Of a stretch of DNA of 34,769 nt, positions 1 to 34,769 are shown piece by piece. A program made the translations under genes and the position numbers. How positions within the stretch are numbered: position 1 is the stretch's first letter; each line of letters starts with the position of its first letter. The stretch covers positions 1-34,769 of IMG/VR virus record IMGVR_UViG_3300042485_000012; one strand, written 5' to 3'. The notes beneath the pieces were generated by a model. It was given only the letters and a program-made list of their open reading frames with translations. It was not told the DNA's origin and made no database searches. Source of the stretch: a virus.

Positions 1-186
1 GGTGTGGGTTCGGTATCTGTCGGGGTGCAGTTTCAGCCAGCCCCGTCGCGCAGATCGAAGGGGGGGGTAAACCCTAATCAGTCAGGCAGAATCGGTTAGT
101 AAGTGACCACTCTCCTAGCATGGCGCATGAATACTAGATAAACGCATATTGTCGTATATTTCTACTTAACACTATGTTCATTATGT
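1..186. repeat. Left copy of terminal direct repeat
   Basis: The first 186 bases recur at the right end (34583-34769). The only difference seen is the G-run at about 60-67, with 8 G here and 9 G in the right copy. This is what a circular or terminally redundant genome looks like after assembly, or a true short direct terminal repeat. The left copy starts inside what is a longer G-run at the right end, so the contig edge lies in a hard-to-sequence G-tract. It holds no gene: a G/C-rich first 70 bases, then AT-rich DNA. Confidence 0.95.
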
Positions 187-298
187 AAAGTTATTTTGCT
201 GTTATCCACAGGTTTGTAAGCGTTTTTGTGCATAACTTCGCCAGTTTCCACGCAACTGTGGACAACTAGGACAACTTCGCGCTGTTTTCTGTGGATAT
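91..298. other. Candidate replication origin: DnaA-box cluster with AT-rich flank
   Basis: Four DnaA-box-like 9-mers lie within about 100 bases. They are TTATCCACA at 202-210 (plus, exact), TGTGCATAA at 227-235 (minus; TTATGCACA, fits TTATNCACA), TGTGGACAA at 257-265 (minus, one mismatch) and TGTGGATAT at 290-298 (minus, one mismatch, inside the end of terS). Starts are 25-33 bases apart. The 70-110 bases to the left are strongly AT-rich and could serve as an unwinding element. Host DnaA binding is known for this motif; origin function here is inferred. The gap between terS and terL is also a common place for packaging signals, so the two roles may coexist. Confidence 0.55.
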
Positions 299-706: not shown

Positions 707-1396
707 CTAAATCTCCTCCAAAGCCCGATTAGCCGTATTTTTGCGCATCTTGCTGGTATCGAACACCTTTGGCAACGACGAAGCCTCCAGCTCGTCCGAC
801 TTGACATCATCAAAGCCTGTCGCACCACCCATCGGAAACTCCTTCGCATCCTTGTCCAGTCTGACCATCGCAGCACAAGGCATCAACGCTTTGATCTTCA
901 TGGTGTCCTTGATGACTGGCGAGTCCATGATCAACTCCAGCTCTTCCATCGTCCAGATGTGACGATTCTGGACATCGGGTCTGAACTGTTGGTACAGCGT
1001 CGCGTCGTGATGTGTCCCAACCACCACCATCACCGACCCGTCTTGCATCTCATGTTCGACTGCAACTATTGCTGGCATCTCAGACACACCGTTCTCGACA
1101 GCCCACGCTTCGAGCGCTGCATAAGCCTTGATCATTCCTCCGACAGCTCTGTCCAACTTCACCTCATCTCTGGACACCGAAGCCTCGAACACTCTCTCAG
1201 CCTGTCTCCATACCTTGATCCGAAACTCTGAGTCCACCAACTCGATCAAGCGATTGATGCCCCAACGCTTTTCGTGCTCACGCTTGACCACAGACAGCTC
1301 AATCAACCTCGAATTCATAAATACCTCAAAAGTATTCATAGGGAAATCTGGCTGTTTTAGACCACCAACAACTTTCTTCAAACTCTTCTTAACCAT
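707..1396 (-). CDS. Hypothetical protein upstream of TerS
   Basis: I do not recognise this 229-residue protein. It begins with a basic stretch (MVKKSLKKVVGG), has a mixed alpha/beta middle with a hydrophobic strand pair near MPAIVAVEHEMQDG and VMVVVGTHHD, and ends in a charged tail. I chose the ATG at 1394-1396 because GGAGTTG stands just before it; an in-frame ATG twelve bases upstream (1408) has only A/T-rich sequence before it. The gene abuts terS without a gap and follows a repeat-rich region downstream of the primase-helicase. A role in replication-to-packaging transition is possible but only from position. No known domain is evident. Confidence 0.75.
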   Translation of the reverse strand: MVKKSLKKVVGGLKQPDFPMNTFEVFMNSRLIELSVVKREHEKRWGINRLIELVDSEFRIKVWRQAERVFEASVSRDEVKLDRAVGGMIKAYAALEAWAVENGVSEMPAIVAVEHEMQDGSVMVVVGTHHDATLYQQFRPDVQNRHIWTMEELELIMDSPVIKDTMKIKALMPCAAMVRLDKDAKEFPMGGATGFDDVKSDELEASSLPKVFDTSKMRKNTANRALEEI

Positions 1397-1443
1397 AGAC
1401 AACTCCATTTTTTAAAAATAACCAAATCGGACGCATTGCCACA

Positions 1444-1560: not shown

Positions 1561-3612
1561 TCATTTCTTGATCTGCACAACCACCGAATTAGATGATTTT
1601 GCGCCATCATCGTCCGCATATACAGCCCAGCACAATTCACCATAAATGATTACTTTTTGTAAATCAGCAAGATCGGCTTTGACGCGATACCAAGCCTTAT
1701 TTAGCGTTGCTGGCATGACATCGCTGCCCATGCGTTTCTTGAATTCGTCCCTCCATTGATCAATCTTTATGCACTTATTGCGCATCCCATCGACCACCTG
1801 CATCTCGCCAAACTTCTTAATTGCGTCGTGCAGACAGGACAACGCAAGCCGTTGATTCAATCCAGCGCCTGTCCTATTTGGAGGAATTGCTTGGTTAGGA
1901 CGATCTGTATCCATCTCCTCATCTGGTTCAACCGCCAGACTGGATGCGCCTTCAAAGTCCACGATTCCACTTGATCCAGTAGTGACCTCGACCATCTTGA
2001 ATCCGATCCTCTGCCCGTCTTCCCCGTCCTTTTGCTTGCTGATGTGGAGTATTCCTTTTGGCGGTTGAACGCCTTCTATGCGGATAATCTCCAGCTCTGT
2101 GTCTACTGCTCCGAGTAGTGAGCTGTGACCCCTGAGTCCTTTGGTTGCGTCCTTACCAGCGTGATGCACCACCAATAAGGAGCACTCATACTTGCCTTGG
2201 ATCGCGCCAGCAGCCGTAATGAATGCACCCATATCCTCACTAGCGTTCTCGTTACCACCGCCAAACGCTCTAGCCAAGGTATCGATGATGATCATCTCAA
2301 AGTTGATGTCGTGGATCGCCTTCAAGTCGTCAATGGCTTGCACCAAGTCCTTGAGGTCTGTCTGACTGCTTCTCAGGTTGACTTGCCGTCTGAGGAAATA
2401 GACAGGTGTTCCTTCTGGTGTGTTGTGGTGCGTCTTGAGAGCCTTGATCCTTGACCCGATACCGCCATGACCCTCACCTGCGATGTACAGGACCGCACCC
2501 TGCTTGCTGATCTGGTTTCCGAGGAATGCTCTGCCTGTTGCGATGCACTCCGCAATGTCCAAGGCAATAAAAGACTTGAAACTCGCTGGCGGTGCGTATA
2601 AAGCGACGAATGATCTCTGTGGGATAACACCTTGCACCAGCCACTCAACTGGTTCGTCCTCGATGTCGTCCCACGCTTCGAGCTTGAATCCTTCGCGTTG
2701 AAGTGGTACTTGTGGCAGTTCCAACTCTTCTGATACTGGTGTCTCAGCAACGCCAATCAATCTTGCAGGAGTCGTTACATCTAACTCAGATGCAATGGCT
2801 TGCGTGGCTTTTGTCAGGTCTACCAGCCTGTCCTTGTCCCCGCCATACTTATGCACAAACTCGTATGCGTCTTCTTTTACTTCGTCGAGTCCAAGGTCTA
2901 CCACTCGGATACTTTTTGTAACCGACTTGAGAGCTGCAACTGCCTTCCTTGCGTACTCCCAGCCCACCGTATCGTTGTCAGGCACTATCGCAATGGTGAG
3001 TCCGACTAGGTGCTTGACCACATCTTCTGGGAAATTACTTGCACCGTTGTGCGTACAGGTTGCCACCACACCTAAAGACTTGAGAGCGTCGGCTGCCTTC
3101 TCGCCCTCACAGAGAAATACAGTTCTGCCTGTTTTTCGTGCAAAGTCCACCTCTGGCAGGTTGTACGGGACTATGTTCGCACCCGTCATACTCGCGTGCC
3201 GTCTACCGTTCTCGTCCACGCGGTACTGCTTGTATGTTTTTCCTTTGGAGTCGAAGGTCTTGTAGCGTTGTTTTATGTGCTGTACTACCCCATCCTCGTC
3301 GGTGTAGTGCCACTCCTGTTCGAGCACAGGTTCTTGAGGTTTCGGTAACGGCTTGATCTGGGTCAAGAAGTCTGTCGGGTTCGGTAAATCATCGAGCAGA
3401 CCGTAGTCCTTGACCGCATTGAAGACCGACTCCTGAGAGCACCCACTAAAGCACTTGAAGAGTGGCTTGCCTTCGTCTGTTTCAGATACACAAAGACTTG
3501 GATTCCTGTCCCCGTTACCCTGCCCGTGTGAGCTGACAGGACAGCTCGCCATCCATTGCCCGTTCACTCGTCTTGCGTTGCCAAGCGCTTGCGCTATTTG
3601 TTCGGCTTGCAT
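1561..3612 (-). CDS. Bifunctional primase-helicase (zinc finger, TOPRIM, RepA/AAA_25-like ATPase)
   Basis: The 683-residue protein joins DNA primase and replicative helicase activities for phage replication. Residues 24-58 hold a zinc-binding pattern (C24, H29, C54, C58). A TOPRIM domain follows, with CEGEKAADAL at 168-177 (E169) and PDNDTVG at 211-217 (D212, D214). From about 330 there is a RepA/RecA-type ATPase: Walker A-like APPASFKS at 340-347, Walker B MIIIDT at 440-445, and a VVHHAGKD segment at 481-488 typical of AAA_25 helicases. The Walker A lacks the usual glycines (A340 and A343), though K346-S347 are kept. The C-terminal third has an extra domain, probably DNA-binding. It follows the methyltransferase gene by 17 bases. 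Family assignment is secure; the exact reaction is inferred. Confidence 0.9.
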   Translation of the reverse strand: MQAEQIAQALGNARRVNGQWMASCPVSSHGQGNGDRNPSLCVSETDEGKPLFKCFSGCSQESVFNAVKDYGLLDDLPNPTDFLTQIKPLPKPQEPVLEQEWHYTDEDGVVQHIKQRYKTFDSKGKTYKQYRVDENGRRHASMTGANIVPYNLPEVDFARKTGRTVFLCEGEKAADALKSLGVVATCTHNGASNFPEDVVKHLVGLTIAIVPDNDTVGWEYARKAVAALKSVTKSIRVVDLGLDEVKEDAYEFVHKYGGDKDRLVDLTKATQAIASELDVTTPARLIGVAETPVSEELELPQVPLQREGFKLEAWDDIEDEPVEWLVQGVIPQRSFVALYAPPASFKSFIALDIAECIATGRAFLGNQISKQGAVLYIAGEGHGGIGSRIKALKTHHNTPEGTPVYFLRRQVNLRSSQTDLKDLVQAIDDLKAIHDINFEMIIIDTLARAFGGGNENASEDMGAFITAAGAIQGKYECSLLVVHHAGKDATKGLRGHSSLLGAVDTELEIIRIEGVQPPKGILHISKQKDGEDGQRIGFKMVEVTTGSSGIVDFEGASSLAVEPDEEMDTDRPNQAIPPNRTGAGLNQRLALSCLHDAIKKFGEMQVVDGMRNKCIKIDQWRDEFKKRMGSDVMPATLNKAWYRVKADLADLQKVIIYGELCWAVYADDDGAKSSNSVVVQIKK

Positions 3613-33009: not shown

Positions 33010-34509
33010 TTATGCAACCCTTGACAGGTTTCTTTTCAACGGTTGAGACCACTTCTGACTCGTATTCGCACCAAACATCGAGACGGCAGCATCGGACGCA
33101 AAGGTCAACACAAACGAGTCAGCCTTGTCGGGTGACTTCAAGCCACGCTTTCTAATGTCGTCCTTGCCCTCGACCTGCATCTTTCCTGAGCTGCTAAAGA
33201 AGTACCTGACAGTAGCCAATTCAGCCACCAGCTCCTCGTCATTGGGGATACGACAGTCACGCGCCTCGAACCACGCCTTGCACTTGTACCAAAGCTCTGC
33301 CCGTAGATTCCTGTAAGTCGTACCCATCGCGGGGGACTCGGAGACATTGATGCCCCTAGCTGGCAACCCAAGTTCTCTGAGACGGTCTACTACACCAGCG
33401 CCAAGACCAATCGAGTCCACCATGATCTCGTGCGGTCTCTGGCTTGGCGGTAATGCTTCCCACTCTGCGACGACAGCGCCTGTGAGTTGCATCAAGTCGA
33501 GGTTTTTCCAAATCTTCGTGGGTTCGATGAGTGCGTTGCCTTGGCGCTTTGAGAGTGCAGACCTGTCGCCACCAAAGCGTGCGACATCCAAGCCCCAGAT
33601 CAGTTTGGCGTGCTGAGATGTCTCGACATCGCGGTGTTTTGCCAGCTCCAAGAGTTCCATCGGGATGATCGTGTCGTCGTCTGACCTTGGAAACTCGCCC
33701 AGTACCCTTATTCGGTATGCATTCGACTCTTCCCCGTACCGCGACTTCATCTCTTCGACATAGGCATCGCTGACCCTTGGAGAGTCAACGCAAGAGACTT
33801 TCATCGTCACCCAATCGTTCGCCAGTCGGTTCTGGGTGTCGTAAAAGAATCCGCTAGAGCGTACAGGGTTGCCCAGCAGTAGGGTCACGGCATTGTGTCC
33901 AGACATTGAGCCAGCAGCAGCCTCAAAGACAGCCTCTGGGATGCCAGATGCCTCGTCAGCCACCAGCATCACATTCTCTGAGTGGACACCTTGCAGGGCT
34001 TCGGGCTGCTCTGCCCTCGATGTCCTTGCGGACACGAAAGCCTCTGTCGCTGCTTCCTTGACCTCGATCCTGTCCTGCTTGACTTCGAGCATATCCCTCA
34101 AGGTCTCAGGCAGTTCTTTGACCCAGCGCTTTAGTTCCGCAAAGAGTGCGTCGTATAGCTGGCTGGATGTGGGGGCTGTTACCACCACCTTGACTGGATA
34201 GCGCAAGAGTAGATACCAGATGATCGCCCAGCTCGCTGCTGTGGACTTGCCTACGCCATGCCCTGATCTGACCGATATTCTGCGGTTGCCCTTTGCGATG
34301 TGCATTAGGAATGTCTCTTGCCAAGTGTCGGGGTTCGCCTTGAGGACTTCCCTGACGAAGAGGACGGGGTTGTTTTTGTAGCGGATGGTGAACGCAACAA
34401 AGGGATTTTTGCTGAGTTCGTCTTCTCTCTTGTCTTGGATGCGGTCTATCTTTGCCACCACATCGGGGTGTAGTTTCTTTTGTACTGGTGCAGTTGATTC
34501 TGTCGTCAT
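33010..34509 (-). CDS. terL: Terminase large subunit (TerL)
   Basis: The 499-residue motor pumps DNA into the capsid and cuts it. The ATPase has Walker A RSGHGVGKST at 81-90 (K88) and Walker B VMLVADEA at 180-187 (D185, E186), and a coupling region near LLGNPVRSSG (211-220). The RNase H-like nuclease has D308 in GLDVARFGGD, D365 in IMVDSIGLG, and D464 in DKADSFVL. The start at 34507-34509 has no clear ribosome site. Its 5' side is an unusual T8-A-T8 and G-rich stretch, then the repeat and the DnaA-box region, with terS beyond on the same strand. Confidence 0.95.
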   Translation of the reverse strand: MTTESTAPVQKKLHPDVVAKIDRIQDKREDELSKNPFVAFTIRYKNNPVLFVREVLKANPDTWQETFLMHIAKGNRRISVRSGHGVGKSTAASWAIIWYLLLRYPVKVVVTAPTSSQLYDALFAELKRWVKELPETLRDMLEVKQDRIEVKEAATEAFVSARTSRAEQPEALQGVHSENVMLVADEASGIPEAVFEAAAGSMSGHNAVTLLLGNPVRSSGFFYDTQNRLANDWVTMKVSCVDSPRVSDAYVEEMKSRYGEESNAYRIRVLGEFPRSDDDTIIPMELLELAKHRDVETSQHAKLIWGLDVARFGGDRSALSKRQGNALIEPTKIWKNLDLMQLTGAVVAEWEALPPSQRPHEIMVDSIGLGAGVVDRLRELGLPARGINVSESPAMGTTYRNLRAELWYKCKAWFEARDCRIPNDEELVAELATVRYFFSSSGKMQVEGKDDIRKRGLKSPDKADSFVLTFASDAAVSMFGANTSQKWSQPLKRNLSRVA

Positions 34510-34527: not shown

Positions 34528-34590
34528 TTTTTTTTATTTTTTTTGTGGGAGAGTGGTGCTGTGGGGAGGGGGGTGTGGGGGGGGTGTGGG
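34528..34590. other. T8-A-T8 tract and G-quadruplex motif upstream of TerL
   Basis: The plus strand has T8 (34528-34535), A, T8 (34537-34544), then G-runs GGGG (34563-34566), GGGGGG (34568-34573), GGGGGGGG (34577-34584) and GGG (34588-34590) with loops of 1, 3 and 3 bases. That fits a canonical G-quadruplex. The T-tract would bend DNA or melt easily. No gene lies here. Together with the DnaA-box cluster over the repeat it forms a long non-coding block between terS and terL, plausible for an origin or packaging signal. Confidence 0.7.
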
Positions 34591-34769
34591 TTCGGTATCT
34601 GTCGGGGTGCAGTTTCAGCCAGCCCCGTCGCGCAGATCGAAGGGGGGGGGTAAACCCTAATCAGTCAGGCAGAATCGGTTAGTAAGTGACCACTCTCCTA
34701 GCATGGCGCATGAATACTAGATAAACGCATATTGTCGTATATTTCTACTTAACACTATGTTCATTATGT
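34583..34769. repeat. Right copy of terminal direct repeat
   Basis: This 187-base stretch repeats positions 1-186 with one extra G in the run at 34642-34650. Removing one copy gives a genome of about 34,582 bases. It starts within the 8-G run of the G-quadruplex motif. See the left copy for interpretation. Confidence 0.95.

Follow-up and report, generated by a model that had tools for sequence, protein, structure and literature searches.

Among the closest described counterparts of the locus reported here is the plasmid pSC101, a small circular replicon that carries both a DnaA box and psi, a 28-bp XerCD site. The phage locus has the same elements; however, the origin box and psi of pSC101 are 1.8 kb apart, compared with about 10 bp in the phage. 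Moreover, the accessory sites of psi (ArcA, PepA) are located on the XerC side, whereas the phage DnaA boxes are on the XerD side, and the carrier of the phage module is a tailed phage. Phage P1 carries lox, a site-specific recombination site near pac that serves circularisation and dimer resolution. P1 encodes Cre; in contrast, no recombinase was detected in the phages with the module. The Xer sites of small plasmids are PepA-dependent, with accessory sites on the XerC side, and plasmid Xer sites without accessory sites are FtsK-dependent (PMC11724359). CTXphi, VGJphi, TLCphi, enterogokushoviruses, and NO16/PM2 also have a dif-like site and no integrase of their own, but these are integrating filamentous, microvirus, or non-tailed phages, while the phages described here are tailed, have variable cores, and carry a linked DnaA array.

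The window, that is, the whole stretch of 34,769 nucleotides that was analysed (IMG/VR record IMGVR_UViG_3300042485_000012), belongs to a circular record, since positions 1–186 are repeated at 34583–34769 with one additional G, in a G-tract. The imperfect 186/187-bp end repeat is either genuinely terminal or an overlap left by assembly; in phiM5, whose TerL is 55% identical, a terminal repeat of 357 bp is annotated immediately before terL. The minus strand encodes the Sf6-type terminase small subunit (terS, 266–706; PF20901, 5.5e-14; phrog_1482, 4.3e-15) and the terminase large subunit (terL, 33010–34509; phrog_2, 9e-44). Because the record is circular, the DnaA boxes described below lie within a single continuous terS–terL intergenic region that runs across the record ends.

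Our analysis revealed a dif-like XerC/XerD site at 164–191 on the plus strand, with a XerC arm (164–174, ACTTAACACTA), a core (175–180, TGTTCA), and a XerD arm (181–191, TTATGTAAAGT). For a scan of the whole genome, 25 published dif sites of beta- and gammaproteobacteria (PMC2731167) were combined into a matrix. The best match was this site, with a score of 17.5, while the next distinct site scored 1.6; in shuffled genomes, the mean maximum was 4.5 and the highest score 15.8. Being almost a palindrome, the site gives a score on both strands. The reversed arm order, with the XerC arm beside the boxes, was ruled out by the matrix scan; the boxes adjoin the XerD arm. The 28-bp, 11-6-11 layout with a conserved XerD arm is that by which dif/xrs sites are recognised in sequence. 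In all 26 representatives of different lineages, the XerD arm begins with TTATGTnAA; its 7th base is free, and its last two bases vary in part. In the same set, the core varies apart from a final CA, and the flank on the XerC side is nearly information-free (mean, 0.25 bits). Carnoy and Roten described dif positions 23 and 24 as variable and A25 as highly conserved; in the 26 phage sites, the free base of the XerD arm is dif position 24, and A25 is invariant. The sequence-only reading had placed the boxes beside AT-rich DNA. The AT-richness was confirmed, but that reading missed that its core is the 28-bp dif-like site. The matrix match and the arm conservation suggest that most of this AT-rich DNA is a Xer-type recombination site. 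Elsewhere, a second XerD-arm match in one record (L068) is an isolated fragment, and weak dif-like matches occur in stretches with no annotated gene in Enterococcus phages 9181 (2501–2528 of locus L354) and EG103P3 (588–613 of locus L355).

Burkholderiales chromosomal dif sites have the same 28-bp, 11-6-11 structure, an identical XerD arm, and the same ACTT...AAGT ends. The window XerD arm has the same sequence as the arm in Bordetella dif and in some Burkholderiales dif sites found in bacterial genomes, and the XerC arm of Rhodoferax dif is close to those of the window phage's relatives. From this dif similarity only, we infer a Burkholderiales host. In contrast, the Burkholderiales core, TGTATA, is absent from the phage sites, the window XerC arm differs, and the Burkholderiales dif is located at the replication terminus, whereas the phage site is linked to DnaA boxes near the terminase genes. 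The psi site of pSC101 (GGTGCGCGCAA GATCCA TTATGTTAAAC; sequence checked) agrees with the phage sites over most of the XerD arm and at the end of the core, TCCA, as phage cores such as TGTCCA and TATCCA illustrate.

The four DnaA boxes of the sequence-only reading were all found, including one inside the terS coding end. Box 1 (TTATCCACA, 202–210, plus strand) is 10 bp from the XerD arm, its orientation is opposite to that of the other three, and its fixed distance from the Xer site is kept in relatives. Box 2 (TTATGCACA, 227–235, minus strand) is kept with TTATCCACA variants and is absent in some groups of relatives. Box 3 (TTGTCCACA, 257–265, minus strand) abuts the terS stop codon, and many relatives have TTATCCACA instead. 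The DnaA-like box 4 (ATATCCACA, 290–298, minus strand) is within the 3' end of terS, where relatives have ATATCCACA, GTATCCACA, or TTACCCACA. The total of near matches to TTATNCACA across the genome is ordinary (27 observed versus 30 expected). The cluster itself is non-random, with a weighted score of 8 in 110 bp, whereas none of 500 Markov shuffles scored above 7. The array is a conserved box cluster beyond chance, as looked for in a DnaA-dependent origin. A GC-skew minimum, which the sequence-only reading had named as a further mark of an origin, was not seen: there is no turn at the boxes, and the third-position skew was also without signal. Among the carriers compared, no distinct conserved unwinding element was found beside the boxes; the AT-rich stretch coincides with the dif-like site, and the 40 bp past that site are 48–58% AT in related and unrelated carriers.

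The boxes, proposed for checking in relatives, were strongly conserved there. In most of about 70 relatives with TerL 87–99% identical, three to four boxes recur at constant intervals, and the module is about 200 to 690 bp from terL; the box variants TTATCCACA, TTATGCACA, TTATTCACA, and TTGTCCACA interchange among them. A second set of 44 loci, which represent a handful of lineages only, was fetched by TerL alone (75–82% identity) to avoid motif bias. A dif-like site and at least two near or exact boxes were present 200–370 bp upstream of terL in 38 of these 44 loci. The other six have no dif-like site, and no exact box was found in the 1.5 kb upstream of their terL. Our conservation claims rest on these TerL-fetched sets, because a search by pattern predetermines part of the core in the loci it returns. 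The related loci add up to 1.03 Mb and contain 288 exact TTATNCACA boxes, of which 262 are no more than 140 bp from a dif core; with loci pooled, the density of exact boxes is 7–10 per kb within this distance versus 0.03 per kb elsewhere. A record of 69407 bases (L310) contains two phage genomes in tandem; the stretches compared are 85–95% identical, and 35016 bp separate the two Xer sites. The record is either a heterodimer or an assembly chimera.

The sequence-only reading had further suggested that the start of replication is linked here to the start of packaging. The comparison with relatives gives no support to this link: module-free TerL relatives keep terS, terL, and a C-tract between them, and in another phage group the module runs the other way with respect to the genes. 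In the window, a C-tract/G-tract inverted repeat lies at 40–67, between the module and terL. A similar C-tract inverted repeat is kept in the module-free relatives, and several relatives' contigs end near it. Since this repeat is kept without it, the module can be separated from packaging.

When IMG/VR was scanned for the core pattern, more than 100 stretches were returned, and in most of them the boxes stand at similar distances from the site (offsets of about -97 to -109, -74, then -44, -60 or -30, and -19). Some of these carriers have an unrelated TerL or one with only about 30% identity. In one group, the module precedes a terS-like gene and the gene for a TerL of 419 aa, and in a second it is found behind terS in inverted orientation; this switch of orientation between groups argues against a promoter role. 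In a third group, the dif-like site has no boxes and directly follows a gene whose 220-aa product matches HTH_36 weakly, slightly below the curated cut-off. This HTH_36-type protein may be the initiator of the boxless group, and this arrangement suggests that the element for replication next to the Xer site is exchangeable. The carriers are mutually related and therefore represent few independent events. No convincing match to the module or its 36-bp core was found in annotated phages and plasmids.

Replication genes were compared between records with and without the site. The window phage encodes a primase-helicase with a RepA-type AAA_25 domain (1561–3612, minus strand; PF13481, 3.8e-41; several phage primase/helicase PHROGs), which we propose to be a partner of the host replication machinery; a family-A polymerase was not detected in this phage. 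PF00476 (polymerase A) was found in none of 21 records with the site versus three of five records without it, the other two of the five being short fragments; two of the three matches are below the Pfam cut-off, and the three are probably one clade. In the clearest module-free case, a 53-kb record (L321), the TerS/TerL type is the same, a polymerase is present, and the helicase is different. Phage_integrase and ParA (PF13614) gave no match in 22 records, with positive controls.

On balance, and with little better than even confidence, we read the region as a composite host-dependent replication module, in which three to four DnaA boxes stand about 10 bp from a 28-bp XerC/XerD site that acts phage-on-phage. 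This reading is supported by the joint conservation of boxes and site at fixed spacing, beside varied terminase neighbours and in either orientation, and by the fact that integrase, ParA, and family-A polymerase were undetected in the site-carrying records. The DnaA array is most simply read as an origin. The DnaA-dependent origin of the sequence-only reading is thus retained as the best reading of conserved boxes that lie between terS and terL and are absent from polymerase-carrying relatives, although the skew does not bear it out. Host DnaA would bind the box array and start theta-type replication of the circular phage genome, which the phage RepA-type helicase-primase and host polymerase would carry on. 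As no integrase was detected, the site would depend for its recombination on host XerCD, which would recombine phage site with phage site; multimers would be resolved in this way, or terminally redundant DNA would be closed into circles. Such a scheme would resemble pSC101, with a DnaA-box origin and psi, or P1, with lox near pac. The variable cores would fit homotypic recombination, as at psi of pSC101.

Against the module reading stand the missing skew signal, the lack of a separate conserved unwinding element among the carriers compared, and the position of the boxes on the XerD side, as cer and psi have their accessory sites on the XerC side. In addition, the real origin could be a lineage-specific repeat array of the GGACAAATG type at 1405–1560, itself a candidate origin or operator. 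According to this explanation, replication starts at the array or within a replication gene, and the boxes titrate DnaA or regulate transcription in the terS/terL region. The array is made up of direct and inverted copies of GGACA(AATG) together with a GTGTGTAT/ATACACAC hairpin and lies upstream of a conserved gene for a 233-aa protein (707–1408, minus strand) that is directly before terS and is retained in a module-free record (L320). In some relatives, the entire repeat set is swapped for other repeats (GATAGATGAATGG, GACGAATGG). Iteron-like repeats beside the helicase-primase gene that change as a set between relatives favor this explanation, and the swap resembles iterons or operators changing together with their protein. 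However, the repeats could equally be repressor operators, and the strict spacing of the boxes, their occurrence with unrelated terminases, and their presence in either orientation are unlike a promoter element. We consider this explanation improbable. The 233-aa protein was considered as an initiator, and nothing significant was obtained by PHROGs, Pfam, PDB profile search, AlphaFold, or Foldseek; its model is mostly helical, with a pLDDT of 73.

Integration into the host chromosome appears unlikely as well. The dif-like site would then be an attachment site at which host XerCD integrates the phage into chromosomal dif, and the boxes would be a separate origin. No integrase was found, yet there is a dif-like site with the exact host XerD arm, and the strategy is known from filamentous phages, enterogokushoviruses, and NO16, all without integrase. 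Such integrase-less phages are known to use the site for integration at chromosomal dif (PMC7062461, PMC9966536). The core homology with host dif expected of a XerCD attachment site was not found: phage cores vary, and none of 26 equals TGTATA, the core of the inferred host. The window core, TGTTCA, shares with it only the first three bases, TGT. No phage-type or hybrid site was found in 399 Burkholderiales genomes, 43 of which show one chromosomal dif of the searched type, and genome searches for such sites at the class and order levels gave only chromosomal dif and a few chance matches. In a scan of the genome collection, no close TerL relative was found in a host contig; the best were 49–69% identical, mostly in small binned contigs. 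Integration is less favored because of the differing cores and the lack of phage-type or hybrid sites and of a close TerL prophage. Finally, the idea that the boxes are Xer accessory sites, at which DnaA shapes the synapse as ArgR or ArcA does at cer/psi, would account for the conservation of boxes and Xer site at fixed spacing and for their loss together, but it is very unlikely, since the boxes are on the XerD side rather than beside the XerC arm, whose flank is unconserved, so that the direct cer/psi analogy was dropped, since one group has the Xer site but no boxes, and since the absence of the polymerase gene in carriers fits an origin better.

We found no description of a tailed-phage module of DnaA boxes and a Xer site in the open-access literature. 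Phage use of Xer is known mainly from integrating filamentous, microvirus, and non-tailed phages, and few DnaA origins are known in phages. Freshwater tailed phages without a detected integrase appear to recruit both host systems within about 135 bp. The composite module would explain why this intergenic region, easily overlooked by annotation, is conserved, and its signature could help link such phages to hosts. It also predicts host-run replication and a host-run circularisation route. More tentatively, the module may be a portable one, common to unrelated tailed phages, through which host DnaA and XerCD take charge of replication and the formation of monomers in integrase-less phages; phages of strictly lytic appearance might even have a plasmid-like state that has gone unrecognised.
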